Of a stretch of 29,457 nucleotides of DNA, positions 5,060 through 27,820 are shown piece after piece. Below the pieces are notes generated by a model. That model was not told where the DNA came from. It was given only the letters and a program-made list of their open reading frames with translations, and did not search any database. This stretch comes from a virus. The translations under genes and the position numbers were made by a program. The stretch spans positions 1 through 29,457 of the IMG/VR virus record IMGVR_UViG_3300033145_000886; one strand, written 5' to 3'. The first letter of the stretch is position 1. The number at the start of each line of letters is the position of its first letter.

Positions 5060-5128
5060 ACGTGTCCGTGTCCGTTGCCCGTGTCTGTAATCGCCAATCG
5101 ACAATCATCAATCGACAATCATCAATCC
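5060..5128. repeat. Intergenic short-repeat array (GTGTCC hexamers then ATCAATC/GACAATC heptamers)
   Basis: On the plus strand GTGTCC-type hexamers occupy about 5061-5086. Heptamers ATCAATC and GACAATC then follow up to the stop of the 246-residue tail gene. The array fills the whole junction between two tail genes and holds no ribosome site for the hub gene. Confidence 0.85.
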
Positions 5129-8679: not shown

Positions 8680-8748
8680 GTTGGTCATTGGTCATTAGTC
8701 ACTGGTCACTGGCTTTACTAATGACAAATGACTATTGACCAGTGACTG
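8680..8748. repeat. Imperfect palindrome made of GTCATTG/GTCACTG heptamers (second copy)
   Basis: Units GGTCATT, AGTCACT and GGTCACT, then the shared core TTTACTAATGACAA, then units TGACTAT, TGACCAG and TGAC. It has the same layout and orientation as 5868-5940. The two copies bracket the chaperone and tape measure block. Confidence 0.85.
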
Positions 8749-9642
8749 CTATACATTCGCGGTAAACGACGGGATGCCGTGGAGCTGGAAGCCGATTGCC
8801 TCTTTCACGACCTCGCCGATCGGCGCATTAACATTGAAACTGTTGAAGGTGACCCACGCGTTGAAATGGTCGCCGGTCTGGTCCTTGTCTGGATCATAAT
8901 TGAAAAGCTCAAGGAAAAAATACGCCTGGCTGCCGTCCGCGCAATCTTCAAAGGCATCGAAAAAAGAATCGCCGCCGATGAAAAAGGCGTTCGCCCCGCC
9001 GTTGCCTCCGGCCTGCCCTGGGATAGCTGTTTTCCACTCCTCGCCCATCACGGAGATATCGACCATGTCCACGCTGATCTCGAAGTTCCAATCAATCAGA
9101 TATCCGACCTTTTCCAGCCCGGATTTAAGGATAAACCCATTGTTTCCGTCCACGTCCACGATTGTTACGTTGCCGTCAAACACGGCCTTGCCCTGGGTAT
9201 AGTCGATGGTCAGCACGTTCTTCCCGCCGCTGTCCGTGAATGTGGGCGGGCTGTTCGGATTCAAGATGCGCCTTGTCGCATCCGTGATCTGCGCCTCTGT
9301 GCCGGATTCCGTGCATGCCTCGTCCTTGAGATTGCCGATCACCCACTGATCGCTGAGCGTATGGCCGGTCGTGGCCGCAAATGTGATCGTCTGGCCGTCA
9401 TCCAGGGTCTGGGCCGCGCCGGTGATGGCCACGGTTTCAGTCCAGGCCCCGCCGTTCTTGCGCCACTTGAACGTGTCGGGCGTGCCCTCGGCATCAATTA
9501 CTACTTCATAATGCGCTGATGCCGCACCCGCAAATGCCGTGCCCCAGGTAACATCGTTCAATCCGTTGCCCTTGAAGCCGTTGGGCCGGAGCCGATAAAT
9601 CGCGCCATGCTTCCCATGCGTGGGAGATGTTGGAGAACCCAT
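8749..9642 (-). CDS. Major tail (tube) protein paralogue with N-terminal extension, 297 aa
   Basis: Residues about 165-297 align by eye with the neighbouring 138-residue tail protein: W-N-F-E-I-S-V-D-M-V-D-I-S, E-E-W-K-T-A-I-P-G-Q-A-G-G and F-N-S-F-N-V-N-A-P-I-G-E here against matching positions there. Both fit the long-tail tube fold. The first ~150 residues are an added module (DTFKWRKNGGAWTETVAITG, then a T-L-D-D-G-Q-T-I-T-F-A-A-T-T-G-H pattern) seen as an ornament in various phage structural proteins. A GGGGGTG ribosome site precedes ATG 9642. One of the pair is presumably the tube; the longer may be a decorated tube subunit. Confidence 0.7.
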   Translation of the reverse strand: MGSPTSPTHGKHGAIYRLRPNGFKGNGLNDVTWGTAFAGAASAHYEVVIDAEGTPDTFKWRKNGGAWTETVAITGAAQTLDDGQTITFAATTGHTLSDQWVIGNLKDEACTESGTEAQITDATRRILNPNSPPTFTDSGGKNVLTIDYTQGKAVFDGNVTIVDVDGNNGFILKSGLEKVGYLIDWNFEISVDMVDISVMGEEWKTAIPGQAGGNGGANAFFIGGDSFFDAFEDCADGSQAYFFLELFNYDPDKDQTGDHFNAWVTFNSFNVNAPIGEVVKEAIGFQLHGIPSFTANV

Positions 9643-9793: not shown

Positions 9794-10210
9794 CTATGCC
9801 GCATCTGACAGCGTTAGAGCGCCGTCGCCCTGGAAATTAAACGAGAATCCCACCTTGTCCCCAATGGCAGGATTAATCGAAAACCCCGTCAAGTAGATAT
9901 CTCCAGACAACGCATTGGTGGCCCCGTCGAGCAGGAACTTCACGTCCGTGAGCTTTGTTCCGGGCGTCGCGGCAATTATATTGTCCAGAAATGCCTTTTG
10001 CTCTGTGTTGCCGGCAACAAACTGACCGGAGAAGCTTCCGCTCCAGCCGGCCTGGCCGGGCAAGCCCTCTTTCCAGTCCTGGCCGGACCGCGAGATGTCG
10101 GCCATGTCGAGACTGGTCTCAATGCTCCAGCCGTCTCCAAAATCCATTGCCACCTCATTTTTCTCCACGCGGCACAACTTGCCGTGAAATGGTGTTGTGT
10201 TAAAAGCCAT
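9794..10210 (-). CDS. Major tail (tube) protein, 138 aa
   Basis: This compact beta-rich protein has the pattern W-S-I-E-T-S-L-D-M-A-D-I-S-R-S-G-Q-D-W-K near residues 28-47 and a C-terminal L-T-G-F-S-I-N-P-A-I-G-D-K-V-G-F-S-F-N-F-Q-G-D-G-A-L. These are the hallmarks of TP901-1-like siphovirus tail tube subunits as I know them. AAAGGAG lies before ATG 10210. Location ahead of the chaperone pair fits. Its longer paralogue is encoded directly downstream. The call of tube subunit is fairly firm; which of the two forms the tube is not. Confidence 0.7.
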   Translation of the reverse strand: MAFNTTPFHGKLCRVEKNEVAMDFGDGWSIETSLDMADISRSGQDWKEGLPGQAGWSGSFSGQFVAGNTEQKAFLDNIIAATPGTKLTDVKFLLDGATNALSGDIYLTGFSINPAIGDKVGFSFNFQGDGALTLSDAA

Positions 10211-10236: not shown

Positions 10237-10379
10237 ACGTGTCCGTGTCCGTATTACTCAAAAGACGTGTCCGTGTGTCCGCTTTCAGCTTCTTTTGCTT
10301 TGAGCCTTCAGCTTTGAGCTTTGAGCTTCTTTTGCTTTCAGCTTTGAGCCTTGAGCTTTCAGCTTTGAGCTTTGAGCTA
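10237..10379. repeat. GTGTCC hexamers followed by an AGCTTTGAGC heptamer array, partly coding
   Basis: GTGTCC units occupy about 10237-10281, and AGCTTTG, AGCTTTC and AGCCTTC units about 10282-10379. The second part is read in frame as the C-terminal tail of the small Cys-rich gene at 10285-10521. The hexamer part shares a 33-bp stretch with 12578-12612. Confidence 0.9.
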
Positions 10380-11519: not shown

Positions 11520-11624
11520 ACCGTGTCCGTGTCCGTTTTCCGTGTCCGCTTTCCGTGTCATCGTGTCTGTGTCTGTACTGCCCGGACACGTCTTTTACTC
11601 ACGGTCACGGCCACGGTCTTTTGA
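11520..11624. repeat. Intergenic GTGTCC array with an inverted copy
   Basis: Plus-strand GTGTCC, GTGTCA and GTGTCT units run from 11523 to about 11575. An inverted CGGACACG follows at 11583, then CACGGTCACGGCCACGG. The array fills the junction between two head-tail connection genes. No coding sequence is supported in it. Confidence 0.85.
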
Positions 11625-12317
11625 TTAGCGATATCTTCCCTTATGCGTCAGCTTGTCGCTTGCCCAGCTCCCCTTCAGATCCTGGTCTTTTGTCACGCTG
11701 GCCGCGGGCGACTGGCCCTCTTTGATTCCTAAATGATCAAAATACGTCTTCCGGTACGTCTTTGCCCTTGCCGCATAATCTCGCGACCTGCTCTTGTGGT
11801 CCACGCTGTCCGCATTTATGATGCTATCACCGGTCTGCGCATAATACGTGGACAACATGTCGCAGAAATGGGCCGCGCACAGGGCCTGAACGGCCTCCTC
11901 GTCAAACGTCTTCACCGTGCATGCGCTGTCCGAGCACGTGTGAAGGGCGGTATATGTCACGCGGAACTCTTCTGATGCTGTCGGCCTGTTCTCTTTGAAT
12001 CGTAGGCAGTCTCCCGCAGGCTTTTCGTAGAGCATCCACTCATCGTCCTGGAGGATATCCGGCGTCTCGTCCGTATCGTCCACCGGATATTCGACCTCCT
12101 TGATGACTGAAAAACCGTCCGACCAGGAGGCAAAGGAAGAAACCGCATAGTCAAAACCGCCGTCCCCGCTAATGTCCTCCACCACCTTGCGCGGCTTGTG
12201 CTTTGAGTGCCTCTTCATGGCCGCATTGACAGCCAGGATCTTGTCGGCCTCGACCAGTGGGATCTCGCCGGCTACCATGCTGTCGATCGCCATGATATAA
12301 TCCTGTCTCGTGCTCAT
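11625..12317 (-). CDS. Head-tail connector-like protein, 230 aa
   Basis: This soluble protein has an N-terminal helical part and a pattern W-S-D-G-F-S-V-I-K-E-V-E-Y-P then Q-D-D-E-W-M-L-Y-E-K, a C-rich turn (H-T-C-S-D-S-A-C) and a helical end (L-C-A-A-H-F-C-D-M-L, N-A-D-S-V-D-H-K-S-R-S-R-D-Y-A). I associate this style with connector proteins encoded after the capsid in several Gram-negative phages. Length and position before the gp10-like gene agree. ATG 12317 has an AAAGG site about twelve bases upstream. Function is inferred. Confidence 0.55.
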   Translation of the reverse strand: MSTRQDYIMAIDSMVAGEIPLVEADKILAVNAAMKRHSKHKPRKVVEDISGDGGFDYAVSSFASWSDGFSVIKEVEYPVDDTDETPDILQDDEWMLYEKPAGDCLRFKENRPTASEEFRVTYTALHTCSDSACTVKTFDEEAVQALCAAHFCDMLSTYYAQTGDSIINADSVDHKSRSRDYAARAKTYRKTYFDHLGIKEGQSPAASVTKDQDLKGSWASDKLTHKGRYR

Positions 12318-12322
12318 TCTGA

Positions 12323-12577
12323 TTAATCGCCTTTGTTCTGAATTTTTACTTCCGGCTTAACAAGTAGATACTGCATAATCCCCTCCCAGAAGCCCACCTT
12401 TCCCCGGTTATCAACCTCCACTTCCGCTCCGTCTTTTTTGATCTTAACAAGGGCGTCCGACTTGCTCATAACCGTCCACACTTCACCTTTCGGGTCCTTG
12501 ACCGTGGTTTTGACATTCGTAAAACCGGAACAGCCGATCAGCGCGGGAACAAGCATTACAATAATAAGCCGTGTCAT
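12323..12577 (-). CDS. Small lipoprotein, 84 aa
   Basis: From ATG 12577 the protein starts MTRLIIVMLVPALIGCSGF, a short signal peptide ending in the lipobox L-I-G-C, with Ser after the Cys, which favours outer-membrane sorting. The mature part (~69 residues) is polar and beta-like (T-T-V-K-D-P-K-G-E-V-W-T-V-M). A longer reading from 12622 would add 15 residues made from GTGTCC repeat. It follows the O-antigen ligase/polymerase-like gene in an envelope cassette. Possible roles are superinfection exclusion (Bor-like or Cor-like lipoproteins are known in prophages) or an outer spanin; the lysis genes are 14 kb away, so I prefer the first. Confidence 0.7.
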   Translation of the reverse strand: MTRLIIVMLVPALIGCSGFTNVKTTVKDPKGEVWTVMSKSDALVKIKKDGAEVEVDNRGKVGFWEGIMQYLLVKPEVKIQNKGD

Positions 12578-12646
12578 CGTGTCCGTATTACTCAAAAGAC
12601 GTGTCCGTGTCCGTATCGTCAATCAACAATCGACAATCATCAATCC
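12574..12646. repeat. Mosaic GTGTCC and ATCAATC/GACAATC array, partly coding at both ends
   Basis: The GTGTCC part (12577-12613) carries the likely start of the lipoprotein gene at one side, and the heptamer part (12616-12646) encodes the last residues (LMIVDC) of the O-antigen protein. It thus replaces normal sequence at two gene ends at once. Confidence 0.85.
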
Positions 12647-13792
12647 CTCTTGTGATATTTCTTTTCTCCCGATCCCCAACCACGCGCAGCCCGCAAGCGC
12701 CAGGGGCGGAATATGAAACACATGCCACCCCATGCAGGACACGGCCAGGGCCGCAATGCCCGCGGCCGCGAGCCTGCCTTCCCGCGAGAGTGTTTTTCTG
12801 CGTTGCCAGGCCGCAATTACAACCCACACCGGATATGCCGCGATCAAAATCATAGCCGGGACACCCATCTCAAAGCCGGTTTGCAGGTATTCATTGTGCG
12901 CGTGCGCCCAGTATTGACGCGCCAGCCTGGGATCGCCGGAAACCATCAATGGAAATTCCTCTGCAAACGACTTCAGGCCCCGGCCAAGCGCCTCGGACCG
13001 GAACGACCAGGCCACGTGCTTCCACGCTTGCCAGCGATCATTCGTGATGGTCCCCTGGAGCGGATCAACCTTGATAAAGAACCAGGCCGAAAACAGGACC
13101 GTCACGATTGAGATCGCCGCAATCATCCGCCTACGCATCCTGCTGAGCGGCACAAGTACAATTATCGAGGCAAGCGCGGCCATGACCCCGGTTGTTGAGC
13201 GACACGTGGCCAGCCCGATGACGATCAAGGGCAACAGGTGCCACCAGCAAACAGGCTTGCTCGGATATCGTGTTGCGAACCAACCCCGGCCGGGCCATAT
13301 CGGTCCCCTGAAAAATGCAATCATGCACAGGGCCAGAAACACGCTTGCCGCGTTTTTGTTGAAGGGCCCCGCGCCGGATTCGCCCAAAGAAAATCTCGGC
13401 AAAATATCAGCCGCCTGCAATAAGACCCACAAGGAGAGCAATAGGCCGGCCACACAGATTGCATTCAAGACACCCTTGGCCCCCAACCCACTGAACCCCT
13501 GGGCCGCGGCCAGAAAAATACCTATCAGCACAAGAGACATGTACGCCGTTATCACCGCGCCGTGTGCAATTACCTGGGCTAATGCCAACAAGAAAAAGGC
13601 CCTCCACCACCAACTCAACAGCCATGTCGCAAACGCCACCCCGGCCAGCCAGATCGACACCAGCTCCCAGGAAAACCGAAACGGCATCCCGTCAATTGGG
13701 ATGATGCAAAACATCAAACCGGGTATGGCTGCGAGCAAGATGAGCTGCGCAACCGCGAGACGATTCACGATTATACTAATACCCCGCCCCAT
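12623..13792 (-). CDS. O-antigen ligase/polymerase family membrane protein, 389 aa
   Basis: About ten hydrophobic segments span the protein, with a large periplasmic loop near residues 220-310. In that loop is W-A-H-A-H-N-E-Y-L-Q-T-G-F-E-M-G-V-P, the conserved WaaL/Wzy-type motif with the catalytic-region His. Such enzymes polymerise or ligate O-antigen sugars at the outer face of the inner membrane. Phage copies (such as the D3 Wzy) change the host surface to block reinfection; that role is inferred. The C-terminus (LMIVDC) is encoded by repeat DNA, and the N-terminus lies on another repeat. The start overlaps the preceding gene by 17 bases, with no good ribosome site, so coupling is likely. 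Confidence 0.8.
   Translation of the reverse strand: MGRGISIIVNRLAVAQLILLAAIPGLMFCIIPIDGMPFRFSWELVSIWLAGVAFATWLLSWWWRAFFLLALAQVIAHGAVITAYMSLVLIGIFLAAAQGFSGLGAKGVLNAICVAGLLLSLWVLLQAADILPRFSLGESGAGPFNKNAASVFLALCMIAFFRGPIWPGRGWFATRYPSKPVCWWHLLPLIVIGLATCRSTTGVMAALASIIVLVPLSRMRRRMIAAISIVTVLFSAWFFIKVDPLQGTITNDRWQAWKHVAWSFRSEALGRGLKSFAEEFPLMVSGDPRLARQYWAHAHNEYLQTGFEMGVPAMILIAAYPVWVVIAAWQRRKTLSREGRLAAAGIAALAVSCMGWHVFHIPPLALAGCAWLGIGRKEISQEGLMIVDC
13739..13774. repeat. Repeat TGCGCAACCG...ACGATT, coding
   Basis: This unit matches the end of the intergenic array at 9655-9790. Here it lies inside the N-terminal coding region of the O-antigen protein (I-V-N-R-L-A-V-A-Q-L), so it has been taken into the reading frame. 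Confidence 0.7.
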
Positions 13793-14252
13793 CGCTTACA
13801 GGTGGAATCACGTTGATAAAATAACTCGTGGTCGAGGCCGATCCTGAGTTCGGCATGCCCCATCCCAATATCTGCTCGTTTGTCGGCGCAGTAGCAGTAA
13901 TTGCGGCCGGCGTCTCAGACAGGTGCAGCTTCGCACCCGGAGACACTGCCGGCTGCCCAGCCAGAACACCCGTAACCACGATTTCTACAGTAGTCGTGAT
14001 TGCGCCGCCCTTGCCTATGATCCCGACAGCGGGCCGCTTGTCGGAATCGTTCGCGTCAGCCTTGAAGACGTTGCCGGTCGAGGCCTGGATGGAAACAACG
14101 TCTCCGGTTGCAAGCGTCTCGCCTGCGACGCCGGAAAACCGCGCATACTTTTGCTTCCAGTATTCGGCCGCCATTGCCTGGGGCACGGCGAACATGATCG
14201 CCAGTACCAGCATCAGGGCAACCACCGCCATCTTTCTGAAACAATGTTTCAT
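13776..14252 (-). CDS. Exported decoration-like protein, 158 aa
   Basis: ATG 14252 follows AAGGAGG at a good distance; an upstream start at 14291 would add 13 charged residues. The N-terminus MKHCFRKMAVVALMLVLAIM, ending in Q-A-M-A-A, is a clear Sec signal peptide with an AMA cleavage site. The mature part (F-S-G-V-A-G-E-T-L-A-T-G-D-V-V, then A-V-G-I-I, G-V-L-A-G, P-G-A-K-L-H-L) looks like DUF2190-type capsid decoration proteins, which normally have no signal peptide. It lies directly after the capsid gene, the usual decoration-protein position. Either a decoration protein has gained a signal, or this is an envelope relative. Confidence 0.65.
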   Translation of the reverse strand: MKHCFRKMAVVALMLVLAIMFAVPQAMAAEYWKQKYARFSGVAGETLATGDVVSIQASTGNVFKADANDSDKRPAVGIIGKGGAITTTVEIVVTGVLAGQPAVSPGAKLHLSETPAAITATAPTNEQILGWGMPNSGSASTTSYFINVIPPVSDGAGY

Positions 14253-14287
14253 GATCAAATCCTCCTTTTCGGATTTTTTAATTTTTT

Positions 14288-14315
14288 TCAATCATCAATC
14301 ATCAATCGACAATCC
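14288..14315. repeat. Intergenic heptamer array (ATCAATC/GACAATC)
   Basis: Four heptamers separate the capsid gene stop from the signal-peptide gene. The last base abuts the capsid stop codon. Confidence 0.85.
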
Positions 14316-16915
14316 TATGCCACCGCTCCCTTGTACCCGCCCCGGTAGTCGATCGGGGTCCCGGCGTACTCATGCCGGATCTTGTGCCGGACTTTGTCCG
14401 CCACGAATACCTGCTCGCTCTGCGGGGAATCGGCCACGAACATCTCCGGCTCTTCGCGGCCGTTGAGATATGCCATCTCGATCAGCTCGGCGATTTCCGG
14501 CGGGAGCGTCATGTACCAGTCGTTTGCATCCGCGTTCAGCAGGCTCAGCGTGTGGCCTTTCACCTGGCCAAAAAGCGGATTCGGGAGCTTAGTCGTGAGG
14601 TCGTTTGAAGAGTAATAGAACTCCTCTTTTTCAACCCTTCCGATCAGGTCCTTCAGGGCTGTCGGGCCGGTCACGTTAACAACCACATCCTGCCCATCCA
14701 GCAGCCCCAGATACTTGCCCGAGTCTTTCTCCGTCATGTTTGCCAGGGCCTTCCAGCCGACGAGTGCAGTCGCATGGGAAAGGGCCGTGGAGCCTAAGTT
14801 CCCGTGGCCCGAGGTGAATACCGCAGTCCCGTCCGTGCAGTTGCTGTTGTTGATATACATGTTCCACACATACTGTCCGTGTGTCCGCCGCGCCGACCTG
14901 GCGAGTCCGTTGATCAGCCTCTGGATGATCGAGATGTCGTCGTTGACGATGGTCTTTCTGGTGATCGTCAGGAGGTTCCCTTTGGTGCCGACCGAGTAGG
15001 TCGATTCCTCGTCGGTTACGGCGGCGATCTCTTCATAATCCGCAGCCTCGGGGTCCACGTCCGCCAGGTCCGGGAACCCGCCCACGAGCACGGCCTCCTG
15101 TGTCCTGAAATCCTTCGCGGATTTTTTCACGCTCACAAGAAGCCCTTCAAGGTAATCGGTCTCCTTGTAGATCTTGACCAGCCGCCTGCCGAGCGTGTTG
15201 CCCAGCACGTAGGTAAACGTGGCGCTGGTAATGTCCATCCTTGCCCGGAGATCCGCCGGCAGTTTTTTGCGATTGAAAAAGCCGGTCACTCGAGGGTCGC
15301 CCGTGAAGAACGTGTACATCTCTCGCAGGCCCCTGAACGCAGGCACATCATCGTAATCCTGTACGTCCTGCACGCTCCGGGTCTGAAAACCCGCGGAACC
15401 GAGTCGCTCCAGGAAAAACGGGTCATGATCCAGGGTCTCCATGCGCGCCAGGGCCACCACGTCTTCTTTTGACAGGCCGAACATCCGGTCCGCTGCCATC
15501 TGTGCGCGCTCGATGGTGCCGATGCCGACATTGATCTCGGATGCGGGTATTGGATCGTTGCCGCCCGCGGGTTCGGCCATCTTGGCCAGATAGTCTTTTT
15601 CGTCATTGATAGCCGTGCCCAGCTCGTCGGGCTCGAATACCCGGCCCTCAAATATCTTCTGGATGCGCTTTCTGGCCAGGCCCGGCAGATCACTGGACGC
15701 CAGCTTCTCTTTCAGGTCCATCTCGCAGCGCAGTTTTGCCAGGTCGTCCTGGGTGACAGCCTGCGGCTCGCCGCCTCCGCCGTCGCCAGGGGTGTTGCCA
15801 TCCCCGCCGCCGCCATCGGCCGCGGGCTCCATTGCCATGCGCGCGAGCTCGGTCACTTCCTCATCGGAAACAGAGTCAAACTCTTTCCCTTTGAGCAGAT
15901 CGGGCCGCGCTTTTGAGATCATGTCCCAAAGTTGCTGCTTGTCCATAACTGCCTCCTTCTGGGCCGCTACGGCCCGGTTGAATTTTCCGCCCGCTGCAGG
16001 ACGGGTTACAATGTCCACGCTGTCTGCCGCCAGGAACTTCAGCAGCTTGAAAACCGGCCTGTCCTCAACGACTTCTTTCTTGGCCCGCACGGGCGCGTCA
16101 TAGCTCAGGCCGTAAACTTTTTCGCCCTCCTTCATGGCTTCCAGCAGGTTTTTCCCTAACCATTTTGCTGAATCCAGGAAGTGAAGAACCCCATTCAATC
16201 CCCGACCGGCCGCGTGCTTTACGTTGTCGATCCAGGCTACCTTATTTTTGACCAGCAGGCTCTTTATGTCGAACAGGGCATCCGGCACGTGCGTCGCTCC
16301 CTGTGGAAGCTGGTAAAGGTTGACGTCCACGCCTTCGAACAGTCCCTCGGCCTCTGCGTCGCGCAGCGCATCATCCGGGATGTACCAGCCATTTTTTGTA
16401 AAGCCGGGCTCGCAGATGGTCACGTCCCAGGCCATGCCGAGCGGGTCTTTGGCCTGGCCGAGCCTTAACAGGATCTCGATGCCGTCATCCATTTCCGACT
16501 GCCGGCTTCTTGCCTCCACCCAGCTATGCTCGACCTCCGTGGACTCGCTGCCAAGCTGAACCTCGCCGTCCAGGATAGAGTACGCGACCTTGTAATATTT
16601 GCCGTCATTTGAGTAGATGAGATATGCCCCGTAAACCTCGCGGACCCAGGCGTCTTTTCCCTCCCTGTCCTGAAGGGCGTCGTAGAGCATGTTCCGGATA
16701 TCGTCCAGGCTCACGTCCGTGTCCTGCTTTGCCCGCCACTTATCGTCATCGTCTCTTTCATATTTCTGTTTAATCGCGCCCCAGGCTGCCTGCCGGGCCT
16801 TGTCCTCGTCGTCATCTTTTGCCAGGGCTGCATTAAAAACCTTCACCCCGATCTTGATCGCGCCCTTGGGCAGGTTCTTCATCCAGTCCGGCGGTTTTTT
16901 CACTGTGTATGGCAT
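14315..16915 (-). CDS. ChaB-like/maturation protease/scaffold/major capsid polyprotein, 866 aa
   Basis: Residues 1-60 (D-W-M-K-N-L-P-K-G-A-I-K, A-R-Q-A-A-W-G-A-I-K) match the ChaB-type domain often found in phage head proteins. Residues about 90-315 look like a prohead protease: H245 in G-V-L-H-F-L-D, S271 in Y-G-L-S-Y-D, and a closing S-V-D-I-V-T-R-P-A-A-G-G (299-310) typical of S78-like enzymes. A Gly-rich linker (366-384) and helical scaffold-like part follow. From about 475 the HK97-fold capsid begins, including T-I-T-R-K-T-I-V-N-D-D-I-S-I-I-Q-R and a late H-G-N-L-G-S. An internal start at M324 gives a protease-free product. The usual separate protease, scaffold and capsid genes are joined here. 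Confidence 0.8.
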   Translation of the reverse strand: MPYTVKKPPDWMKNLPKGAIKIGVKVFNAALAKDDDEDKARQAAWGAIKQKYERDDDDKWRAKQDTDVSLDDIRNMLYDALQDREGKDAWVREVYGAYLIYSNDGKYYKVAYSILDGEVQLGSESTEVEHSWVEARSRQSEMDDGIEILLRLGQAKDPLGMAWDVTICEPGFTKNGWYIPDDALRDAEAEGLFEGVDVNLYQLPQGATHVPDALFDIKSLLVKNKVAWIDNVKHAAGRGLNGVLHFLDSAKWLGKNLLEAMKEGEKVYGLSYDAPVRAKKEVVEDRPVFKLLKFLAADSVDIVTRPAAGGKFNRAVAAQKEAVMDKQQLWDMISKARPDLLKGKEFDSVSDEEVTELARMAMEPAADGGGGDGNTPGDGGGGEPQAVTQDDLAKLRCEMDLKEKLASSDLPGLARKRIQKIFEGRVFEPDELGTAINDEKDYLAKMAEPAGGNDPIPASEINVGIGTIERAQMAADRMFGLSKEDVVALARMETLDHDPFFLERLGSAGFQTRSVQDVQDYDDVPAFRGLREMYTFFTGDPRVTGFFNRKKLPADLRARMDITSATFTYVLGNTLGRRLVKIYKETDYLEGLLVSVKKSAKDFRTQEAVLVGGFPDLADVDPEAADYEEIAAVTDEESTYSVGTKGNLLTITRKTIVNDDISIIQRLINGLARSARRTHGQYVWNMYINNSNCTDGTAVFTSGHGNLGSTALSHATALVGWKALANMTEKDSGKYLGLLDGQDVVVNVTGPTALKDLIGRVEKEEFYYSSNDLTTKLPNPLFGQVKGHTLSLLNADANDWYMTLPPEIAELIEMAYLNGREEPEMFVADSPQSEQVFVADKVRHKIRHEYAGTPIDYRGGYKGAVA
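15944..15958 (-). promoter_or_regulatory. Internal ribosome binding site and in-frame ATG within the capsid polyprotein
   Basis: On the minus strand AAGGAGG (15958-15952) lies five bases before an in-frame ATG (15946), codon 324. The product, M-D-K-Q-Q-L-W-D-M, would be 543 residues: scaffold plus capsid without the protease. It is stronger than the site before the full-length start, recalling lambda C/Nu3. Confidence 0.75.
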
Positions 16916-17253: not shown

Positions 17254-17338
17254 CTCAGCTCAAAGTTGAAGGCTGAAGGCTGAAGGTAAAATGTTTTTTC
17301 TTTTATTCTTTGAGCTTTGAGCTTTCAGCTCTTAGCTT
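17254..17338. repeat. Inverted pair of AGCTTTGAGC-type arrays (potential long hairpin)
   Basis: Plus-strand AGCTCAAAGTTGAAGGCTGAAGGCTGAAG (in minus sense CTTCAGCCTTCAGC...) faces CTTTGAGCTTTGAGCTTTCAGCTC after a T-rich spacer. The two halves could pair in RNA. It lies in the gap between the Mu F-like gene and the 92-residue gene. Confidence 0.8.
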
Positions 17339-17397
17339 TATGCCGCCAGGCGTTCCGCTGTTTCATCCCAACTGGGATGATAAGGTATGCTGTATCA
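17338..17397 (-). other. In-frame UGA with downstream open frame and SECIS-like hairpin (candidate recoding site)
   Basis: The stop at 17397-17395 follows N-T-V-R-C-E. After it the same frame stays open for 18 codons (YSIPYHPSWDETAERLAA) to a TAA at 17340-17338. A perfect 7-bp stem TCATCCC/GGGATGA (17380-17363) with loop AGTT begins 14 bases after the UGA. The G at loop position 2 and the distance fit what I recall of bacterial SECIS rules. Plain chain termination is the simpler reading. Confidence 0.3.
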
Positions 17398-19661: not shown

Positions 19662-19722
19662 GCGCGTCCGTGTCCGTGATCCGTGTCCGTATCGTCAATC
19701 ATCAATCGACAATCAACAATCC
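19662..19722. repeat. GTGTCC array followed by ATCAATC/GACAATC heptamers
   Basis: Three GTGTCC-type units (19664-19691) are followed by CGTCAATC, ATCAATC, GACAATC and AACAATC. This is the last such array before a 7-kb stretch with none. It separates the terminase stop from the portal start. Confidence 0.85.
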
Positions 19723-24025: not shown

Positions 24026-24346
24026 TTGGATCTCACACAACGTGTACGATATAAAGTGCTCACGATCAGGGGCACGTCGACGGGCCTGGCGCACAGCACG
24101 GTAATCCAATATCGCATGCGGCGCTGGAATTTCCCCGCAGAGTCCAAGCCGATCCCCGGCCCAGGCGGGCCAGGCGGATTGTGGACATGCCCAAGCCGCG
24201 GCCAGGCACGATCCTTGCAACGATACCTCAAAGCAAAATACGATAGGGACACAGTGATCCACCTGTGTATCATCGACAAAAATCTGTATGAGAGTTCCTG
24301 CCGCACAAAAACCAATCGATTATTTTTACTCGATCCCATCGCCTAA
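24026..24346 (+). CDS. Small unrecognised basic protein after the island terminator, 106 aa
   Basis: No family is recognised. The start is TTG 24026, seven bases after a full AAAGGAGGTGAT ribosome site; a GTG/ATG-based longer start has no such support. The N-terminal 35 residues (L-T-Q-R-V-R-Y-K-V-L-T-I-R-G-T-S-T-G-L-A-H-S-T-V-I-Q-Y-R) have the look of a short helix-turn-helix. The rest is basic with two Cys. It ends four bases inside the convergent ParB/PAPS fusion gene. No promoter is seen after the terminator, so read-through of the island transcript may be needed. Confidence 0.6.
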   Translation: MDLTQRVRYKVLTIRGTSTGLAHSTVIQYRMRRWNFPAESKPIPGPGGPGGLWTCPSRGQARSLQRYLKAKYDRDTVIHLCIIDKNLYESSCRTKTNRLFLLDPIA

Positions 24347-25608
24347 TCTTTTCGGGACCGTGCCTGGTGCACGGTCCCAAGCCCCATAATTTTTCTGAGC
24401 CTGTTTCTGACCTCTTCGTCCGAGATACCGTGAGAGCACGCGCCCTCGGCCATGTAGCCCAGGGCTCGCAAAAAAACGGCAGGGTCATGCTCTCTCAGAT
24501 CGTTCCACTCCTCACGTGTCGTGGCAAAACAAAATATACATCCCAAGCGATCACGATATCTGTACGAGTAATGTAATTGCCAGGCATGCTTTTCGACCAA
24601 GGCCAAAACCTGGCCTTTTGCCAAATCCAATATGGGCCGGGCAATGAAAATCTTGTGCCCCGCGTGCATAGCGCGATCCTTTGCCTGGGCTCTTCGCTCA
24701 CTTTCCTCTTTTCGCCATCCTTCGCAGACTACAAGATCTTGCCTGCCCGTATATCCATTGTCGCAGAAAAAGGCGTTTGTCGGATGGATCTTCCAGGTAA
24801 TTGTGCACCAGTTCCTGTTTTGCAAGGGCCAGCCGTTTTTACGAAACATCGCGGCTTTTTCCTCTTCGGTCATTTGTTTGCCGATAACCTCGAGGGCCAA
24901 CGCTTCTTTGGCGGCAAAATCGCGCACAAAGCCCTCCAGGTCCGGGTAATCAAGCGGGGTGCGACAAAAAACAAGTGTCATTTTTTCCCTGGGCACACCA
25001 TAGTCGAGCAGGACGGCCACGGTGGCCATAGAATCCTTACCGCCGGAGAAATTGACCAAAACGCGATTGAAGGACTTGATCCAGTCCATTAAGGGGATCG
25101 CAGCGATTTCGGGCGACACCGGGATATCGCGGGCAATGCCTTCCTTTTCCTCTTTCTCCTCCCCAAACAGGTCGGGATAGTCAGAGCGGAGATCCCCGAG
25201 ATCTATTTCCGGGATCTCGATATCGTCGAACACGTCGCCGGCAAGCTGCATCTCGCTTAGAAAATCGTATAAGCCCTCGCCGGAAATCCTGCCGTAGCGG
25301 CTATTGATCTTGAGCAAAATCTCGGCTGCCTCCTGTCGGCTTTCCGCCTGAATCTCGGCCACGGGAAGCGACGGGACCTCAAAGCCCTTTGCGGCCATGT
25401 CTTGCAGGGTAAAGAGGCGCTGGTGCCCGTCCAGGATCTCATTGCCCCAAATGAAGATCGGCACACAAAAGCCGTGCTTCAGAAATGATTTCTTGAGCTT
25501 TTTCAGGTTCTGCGCGGGCAATGTCTTGAGATTGCCCTGAAATGTCTTTAGCTCCGACAGAGGCATATTCTTTGATCCTTTGCATCGGATCTTGATTTCT
25601 TTTGCCAT
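24343..25608 (-). CDS. ParB-like/PAPS reductase-like fusion protein, 421 aa
   Basis: Residues ~15-105 are a ParB N-terminal-type domain, with I-L-D-G-H-Q-R (58-64). Residues ~175-400 are a PP-loop ATPase of the PAPS reductase type: F-S-G-G-K-D-S (187-193), N-W-C-T-I-T-W-K (266-273), G-W-R-K-E-E-S-E-R-R-A (297-307), G-C-I-F-C (356-360) and Cys391. The PP-loop domain is close in plan to IbrA and DndC, and the ParB domain to IbrB. IbrA and IbrB are separate prophage-linked partners that activate gene expression. A nucleic-acid modification or regulatory role follows by analogy. It sits after the holin, next to the moron-like island. The last 12 codons run over a palindrome (24354-24378). Confidence 0.8.
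   Translation of the reverse strand: MAKEIKIRCKGSKNMPLSELKTFQGNLKTLPAQNLKKLKKSFLKHGFCVPIFIWGNEILDGHQRLFTLQDMAAKGFEVPSLPVAEIQAESRQEAAEILLKINSRYGRISGEGLYDFLSEMQLAGDVFDDIEIPEIDLGDLRSDYPDLFGEEKEEKEGIARDIPVSPEIAAIPLMDWIKSFNRVLVNFSGGKDSMATVAVLLDYGVPREKMTLVFCRTPLDYPDLEGFVRDFAAKEALALEVIGKQMTEEEKAAMFRKNGWPLQNRNWCTITWKIHPTNAFFCDNGYTGRQDLVVCEGWRKEESERRAQAKDRAMHAGHKIFIARPILDLAKGQVLALVEKHAWQLHYSYRYRDRLGCIFCFATTREEWNDLREHDPAVFLRALGYMAEGACSHGISDEEVRNRLRKIMGLGTVHQARSRKD
24354..24378. repeat. Perfect 10-bp palindrome at convergent gene ends
   Basis: GGGACCGTGC (24354-24363), loop CTGGT, GCACGGTCCC (24369-24378). It lies within the last codons of the ParB/PAPS gene, just after the convergent stop. A weak relative (GGGAC...GTCCC) is at 27240-27256. 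It may act as a bidirectional transcription barrier, although no T-run adjoins it. Confidence 0.7.
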
Positions 25609-27559: not shown

Positions 27560-27775
27560 TCAGGCTTTCAATTTGGAGCAGGCAAAAAACCATTCTTTCC
27601 TGCGATGCCTCCGCCCCTTGGCCCATCGTACAATCATCCAGGCCCTCAGCGACGGATATCCAAGTTGCCGCCATCTTGGCTTTGAGCTTTCAGCTTTCAG
27701 CTTTGAGCTGTCTGGCTTTGCGATCTTTCTTGTGTAAACAGGCTCGGATCCTTCCTGTATTTCGTGTTGGCTCAT
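27560..27775 (-). CDS. Small basic protein with a repeat-derived insert, 71 aa
   Basis: The protein has three parts: an acidic start (MSQHEIQEGSEPVYTRKIAKP), an insert (D-S-S-K-L-K-A-E-S-S-K) read from an AGCTTTGAGC array at 27679-27710, and a basic block R-W-R-Q-L-G-Y-P-S-L-R-A-W-M-I-V-R-W-A-K-G-R-R-H-R-R-K-E-W-F-F. The last block has the look of a conserved short DNA- or RNA-binding protein. ATG 27775 has no ribosome site and abuts a repeat. Translation of the basic part may also begin elsewhere. Confidence 0.45.
   Translation of the reverse strand: MSQHEIQEGSEPVYTRKIAKPDSSKLKAESSKPRWRQLGYPSLRAWMIVRWAKGRRHRRKEWFFACSKLKA
27679..27710. repeat. AGCTTTGAGC array within a coding frame
   Basis: Four plus-strand units (CTTTGAG, CTTTCAG, CTTTCAG, CTTTGAG) are translated in frame as part of the 71-residue protein. 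Confidence 0.85.
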
Positions 27776-27820
27776 ATCGATTGTCTATTGATGATTGATG
27801 ATTGATGATTGATAATTGAT
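27776..27820. repeat. Heptamer array in opposite orientation (GATTGAT on plus strand)
   Basis: ATTGATG-ATTGATG-ATTGATG-ATTGATA units run on the plus strand. All other arrays of this family show these units on the minus strand, so this one is inverted relative to them and to the genes. Confidence 0.85.

Follow-up and report, generated by a model that had tools for sequence, protein, structure and literature searches.

In the head gene run of a virus record we find a gene for a protein with a capsid decoration fold and a predicted export signal, overlapped by the following gene for a membrane enzyme of the Wzy_C / O-antigen ligase family. The record stretch analysed here (the window) comprises 29.5 kb, and its identified genes all lie on the minus strand. 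With slightly less than even confidence, we read the two genes as the core of a unit in which the enzyme is a protein O-oligosaccharyltransferase dedicated to the exported decoration protein and acting on it, like TfpO with pilin. The exported structural-type partner, the overlap of the genes and the intact catalytic residues fit such an enzyme. The original prediction had proposed a surface-changing module which blocks reinfection or alters serotype. The enzyme could indeed change the sugars of the cell surface, as happens with phage D3, but its place next to an exported protein, with operon-like overlap of the two genes, fits action on this neighbour better than a general surface cassette or an independent moron.

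The trio in the head gene order

The head genes begin with a terminase in large-subunit position (21324-19723), identified by homology to relatives and gene order. A portal (19638-18220), a MuF-type head protein (18171-17395) and a fusion of protease/scaffold and major capsid protein (14315..16915, 866 amino acids) follow. The fusion matches Phage_capsid_4 (5e-28), phrog_29592 and phrog_4523, and is a major head protein by PHROGs. Between it and the head-tail genes lie, consecutively and in the order originally predicted, genes encoding a signal-peptide protein (14252-13776), the Wzy_C enzyme (13792-12623) and a small lipoprotein (12577-12323). The downstream border of this slot is a head-tail protein in adaptor position (11625..12317, 230 amino acids), which is 62-73% identical across all closest relatives and gave no match in Pfam and PHROG scans. 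A Neck1-type protein (11514-11023, phrog_5) and the tail genes come after it. No promoter-like site was found on the minus strand in or just upstream of the trio, the nearest (15945) being within the capsid gene, so the trio looks like a part of the head operon.

The lipoprotein (12323..12577) has 84 amino acids and a lipobox, LIGC; an alternative TTG start lies at 12622. Homologues are found in the same slot in three relatives (L024, L030, L104) and downstream of the slot in L029. Together with the first three of these, the retention of the decoration and Wzy_C genes in L009 (73% identical capsid) and L010 indicates that the trio is more than chance. The claim that the three genes form one cassette was rejected because the lipoprotein and the enzyme occur independently of each other: L024 and L030 have the lipoprotein without Wzy_C, L009 has Wzy_C without the lipoprotein. 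The trio is therefore not one fixed cassette, and the lipoprotein is an optional neighbour of a two-gene core. In an unrelated phage group (L234, L235, L238, L268, L282, L287), a small lipoprotein of another kind, which has paired cysteines, lies between a signal-peptide protein and Wzy_C.

Repeat arrays had been described as flanking the cassette at both ends. One short tandem array (14274..14314) is located between the capsid and decoration genes, and another (12600..12652) covers the 3' end of the Wzy_C gene and the adjoining gap, i.e. it lies inside the trio. Similar arrays of 6-7 bp occur in 12 of the 15 window gaps over 40 bp. The arrays at the trio hence mark no module, and they were rejected as module borders. 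They are degenerate and consist of several different words; 17 are listed, some of them overlapping gene ends (examples are 5061-5127, 8681-8747, 10238-10378, 11521-11618, 17267-17339, 19666-19721 and 27679-27820). Other repeat words occupy the same places in relatives such as L011. In appearance alone, the arrays are reminiscent of the TAACTGA repeats found between genes in Beggiatoaceae (PMC4679880).

The decoration-type protein and the Wzy_C enzyme

The first gene of the trio (13776..14252) is preceded by a ribosome binding site, AAGGAGG, before the ATG at 14252, and encodes 158 amino acids. Codons 1-28 (14169..14252) encode a predicted signal peptide, MKHCFRKMAVVALMLVLAIMFAVPQAMA, followed by AEYW, with predicted cleavage after A28 (between AMA and AEYW). 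The AlphaFold model (pLDDT 87) has its best PDB matches among capsid decoration and stabilising proteins (Foldseek, best E 4e-4), namely those of Adjutor, HFTV1, phiCD508, Sf11, T1, TW1 and Pam3, with lambda gpD further down the list. Matches among viral models included a DUF2190 protein and many tail-fibre-type domains. In fold and in the position of its gene next to the major capsid gene, the protein resembles the decoration proteins of Adjutor, TW1, T1, Pam3 and HFTV1, lambda gpD and those of DUF2190 type, and it can be counted as DUF2190/gpD-type. It differs from known decoration proteins in that the versions of this clade carry a signal peptide and the long forms add fibre-like C-terminal repeats. 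All three products of the trio are envelope-directed, as had been proposed, but by its model the signal-peptide protein belongs to the head-decoration type and bears an export signal, which makes it more than a plain envelope protein.

The predicted signal peptide is a property conserved across the clade. A simple rule, used instead of SignalP, scored a signal-peptide-like N-terminus in 67 of 68 clade homologues versus 1 of 170 capsid and adaptor proteins. Conservation of a signal peptide on capsid-decoration-type proteins throughout a phage clade is unexpected even without glycosylation. As an alternative to export, the hydrophobic N-terminus might stay uncleaved and anchor heads at the inner membrane while they assemble, and the neighbouring membrane enzyme would help to organise or modify this site. 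The hydrophobic segment is conserved as required (67/68), and a second head-region protein, 'SP2', also has one in 43 of 47 copies. However, A-x-A, typical of cleaved signal peptides, stands at the expected place in 45 of the 68 homologues, and we regard membrane anchoring as very improbable and as less likely than an effect on surface sugars (see below).

SP2 has about 145-175 amino acids (L010:7278-7781, L074:13185-13712 and about 40 more), is common in the clade and is absent from the window. It shows a weak match to DUF6385 and to a major tail PHROG. Its N-terminus is scored as signal-peptide-like by the rule named above, and copies in some distant relatives, L016-L020 among them, begin directly with the domain.

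The Wzy_C gene (12623..13792, 389 amino acids) overlaps the decoration gene by 17 bp. Its product belongs to the Wzy_C superfamily (PF04932, GT-C fold), with a Pfam score of 43.1 bits versus a gathering cut-off of 31.7; Wzy_C is matched at E <= 0.01 by all 21 clade members and all 14 distant members. The AlphaFold model (pLDDT 86) is most similar to WaaL (7TPG; Z 19.5, 309 residues), with FtsW/RodA next. R253 (codon 13036-13034), H299 (codon 12898-12896), N300, G270, G272 and G310 are invariant in 33 of 33 representatives of enzyme clusters. PMC3643930 gives R288/H338 for WaaL, where they are essential, and R298/H349 for PglL; judged by spacing, R253/H299 would correspond to the WaaL pair. The enzyme thus combines a WaaL-like fold with a conserved Arg and His. 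It shares with WaaL the fold and the His of the HN motif, and differs from it in a sequence identity of only 15%, in a location outside any LPS locus and in the adjacent exported protein. In L132, which is not among the cluster representatives, the Wzy_C copy (L132:3270-4382) has Asp in place of the catalytic His (ADNEY vs AHNEY) and is possibly inactive.

The Wzy_C domain by itself cannot tell ligase, polymerase and O-oligosaccharyltransferase apart, and neither NCBIfam nor a PDB sequence search assigned the enzyme a subclass. PglL_A (PF15864) and Wzy_C_2 were found in none of the 21 clade enzymes, which contain Wzy_C alone, plus one weak Acyl_transf_3 match. Without these two domains the enzyme does not classify as a general O-oligosaccharyltransferase of the PglL type. 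By tblastn at 1e-5 the window enzyme had zero matches among 50,697 phage records, and three distant Wzy_C enzymes likewise had zero among cultured phages.

The genes of the protein-specific O-oligosaccharyltransferases TfpO, TfpM and PglS adjoin those of their substrates; in TfpO and TfpM, Wzy_C is accompanied by neither PglL_A nor Wzy_C_2, and the target of TfpO is a C-terminal serine (PMC12645811, PMC3643930). Measured by the TfpO/TfpM criteria of PMC12645811, the window enzyme resembles TfpO/PilO and TfpM (with pilA) in having Wzy_C without PglL_A/Wzy_C_2 and in being encoded directly beside the gene of an exported structural protein. In contrast to these enzymes, its partner is no type IV pilin; it is a phage protein of capsid-decoration or fibre type in the head gene run, and transfer is here a prediction only. 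Because the partner has the decoration fold and not that of a pilin, we do not file the enzyme as TfpO.

Co-variation in the clade and recurrence beyond it

Capsid relatives were gathered from IMG/VR, and a maximum-likelihood tree of 51 capsids was computed. Wzy_C is found in the slot in 21 of the 51, and its presence has changed (by gain, loss or swap) at least 12 times on well-supported branches. In each of the 21 members with Wzy_C the decoration protein is short, and no enzyme stands beside a long form. Only the long decoration protein is present in 26 of the 30 members without Wzy_C, the other four having short ones. Fibre-like C-terminal repeats of the long form were seen in the four tested that gave a match (L030, L056, L072 and L143; phrog_38058). 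Among 12 independent pairs, a change of the enzyme came with a switch of the decoration type in 10-12, and never in the opposite way (p about 0.001).

A C-terminal tail of the type P-x-S/T-x-G-A-x-Y behaves similarly. It is present in 18/21 members with Wzy_C versus 0/30 without, is lacking in all four enzyme-less short decoration proteins, and switched with the enzyme in 9-10 of the 12 pairs. In the window this tail is PPVSDGAGY (13779..13805), which forms a lower-confidence end of the model (pLDDT 68) and, from the pattern in the clade, is a candidate acceptor region. A Pro/Gly-Tyr stretch similar to the P-S tail is seen in other head proteins and could serve as an arm for docking to the capsid. 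In roughly half of the clade the decoration protein has a signal peptide but Wzy_C is absent, so export itself calls for another reason.

For the search beyond the clade, viral contigs were searched with enzyme alignments alone, which yielded 33 Wzy_C clusters at 50% identity. An exported protein or lipoprotein is encoded directly upstream of the enzyme in 26 of the 33 by rule; L137, L270 and L285 were added as exported on reading their sequences, after the rule had missed them. Two clusters (L101, L227) are cut off, which leaves 29 of 31 judgeable clusters with such a gene, versus a background of 13% by the same rule (40/308; p about 1e-23). The two exceptions are L272, with an exported protein two genes upstream, and L281, with none. 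The genes of the pair mostly overlap or are at most 30 bp apart. Many unrelated, uncultured phages repeat the arrangement in which a major head protein is followed by a signal-peptide protein, in some cases a lipoprotein, then Wzy_C and a head-tail gene, and in the L274 group the pair is upstream of the major head gene. The head proteins adjoining the pair were major head proteins by PHROGs in 10 of 10 cases checked, belonging to six unrelated families (phrog_1005, 3437, 9953, 371/133, 334 and 1328) plus the window's own type. The P-S tail is absent in unrelated partners, which end in YYTATQ, EFYYNRK and similar; a universal P-S acceptor tail was therefore rejected.

This recurrence bears on an objection to our preferred reading, namely that neighbouring genes can co-switch through linkage alone. 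As the two genes adjoin, some of the co-switching could be due to their exchange as a block. Taken to its end, Wzy_C would be a moron which landed behind one decoration gene, has been swapped as a block ever since and does not act on its neighbour; given the adjacency, block exchange alone would then yield the co-switching. Yet the enzyme is paired again and again with exported partners that are not related to each other, next to capsids that are likewise unrelated (L196 included), a pattern which one landing plus block swaps does not give. We consider linkage alone improbable, and it also ranks below seroconversion.

A host chromosome copy with the same neighbours, which would have spoken against a phage module, was looked for in 395 genomes from the phylum to which the Geobacteraceae genome G016 belongs. 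The best match of the enzyme (G358, E 3e-34; the remaining matches being far weaker) adjoins a phage capsid, and a host chromosomal origin was rejected on this match, the comparison of neighbourhoods being confined to it. In a prophage-like region of G358, the capsid gene is immediately followed by genes for another type of signal-peptide head protein, for Wzy_C and for an adaptor.

The main rival explanation is late surface masking or seroconversion. Hereby Wzy_C would alter O-antigen polymerisation or ligation, and the decoration-fold protein and the lipoprotein would block receptors, which stops superinfection or prevents new particles from adhering to cell debris or to sister cells. D3 wzy-beta and VarioGold Wzy_C are phage genes of the same family which are tied to lipopolysaccharide change and, as in the window, encode polytopic proteins. 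Moreover, the fold of the enzyme is closest to WaaL, and lipoproteins adjoin Wzy_C in two unrelated groups (that of the window and L234, L235, L238, L268). Lysogeny is likely as well: a Mu-type transposase C-terminal domain is present in 13 of 14 near-complete relatives, and one relative lies within a 146 kb bacterial genome contig. Judged by these domains, the clade members are probably Mu-like transposable phages; the window, itself a fragment, lacks the domain.

Seroconversion leaves unexplained, however, why unrelated phages nearly always have the enzyme immediately after an exported protein of virion type, and why the enzyme switches with the decoration type. The known seroconverting genes of D3 and VarioGold are positioned elsewhere, near lysis or integrase genes and in opposite orientation, whereas the window enzyme has an exported head-type partner. 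The neighbours of a D3-type cassette (wzy-beta with iap and oac near lysis or attachment genes) are not found here. The position of the trio, which had been called unusual, is thus unlike that of these genes, but for the enzyme the slot is normal in the clade and in many unrelated phages. Furthermore, the operon-like position suggests late expression, which would be too late for remodelling long-lived surface sugars. We therefore judge seroconversion or superinfection exclusion rather unlikely, even though it comes before the other alternatives.

Proposed glycosylation of the decoration protein

For the dedicated O-oligosaccharyltransferase, we infer export, glycan transfer, acceptor site, virion incorporation and benefit as follows. 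The decoration protein would be made late alongside the other head proteins and carried by its signal peptide across the inner membrane. There the Wzy_C enzyme would transfer a host lipid-linked glycan to it, probably within the exposed C-terminal Pro/Ser tail. Once glycosylated, the protein may meet capsids at cell lysis and coat them, or may work at the cell surface. An exported head protein fits poorly with head assembly in the cytoplasm, unless binding follows lysis; binding at lysis would be the simplest route of an exported protein onto the virion.

A broader and more speculative proposal, which we hold to be rather unlikely, is a widespread, undescribed group of tailed phages which export a head decoration or head-fibre protein, glycosylate it in the periplasm with host glycans by a phage O-oligosaccharyltransferase, and apply it as a coat to their virions on lysis, which would give particles bearing host-type sugars. 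If this is true, tailed phages can complete virion proteins outside the cytoplasm, and these proteins can bear host sugars; virion assembly, adsorption and evasion would be understood differently; and new compact O-oligosaccharyltransferases with built-in substrate partners would become available. In any case, a phage 'O-antigen ligase' need not mean seroconversion. The enzyme family and the principle of an enzyme encoded beside its substrate are already known. Open-licence papers contained nothing relevant on exported decoration proteins, phage O-oligosaccharyltransferases or the pair, and we found no precedent for the exported decoration-type partner of Wzy_C in a head gene run.

Two further features of the window concern other genes. 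Two adjoining genes (8749-9642 and 9794-10210) both match major tail protein families, one having about twice the length of the other, and probably represent a duplicated tail-tube gene. A fusion protein of 421 amino acids (24343-25608) combines a ParB/methyltransferase-like N-terminus with a phosphoadenosine phosphosulfate reductase-like C-terminus.
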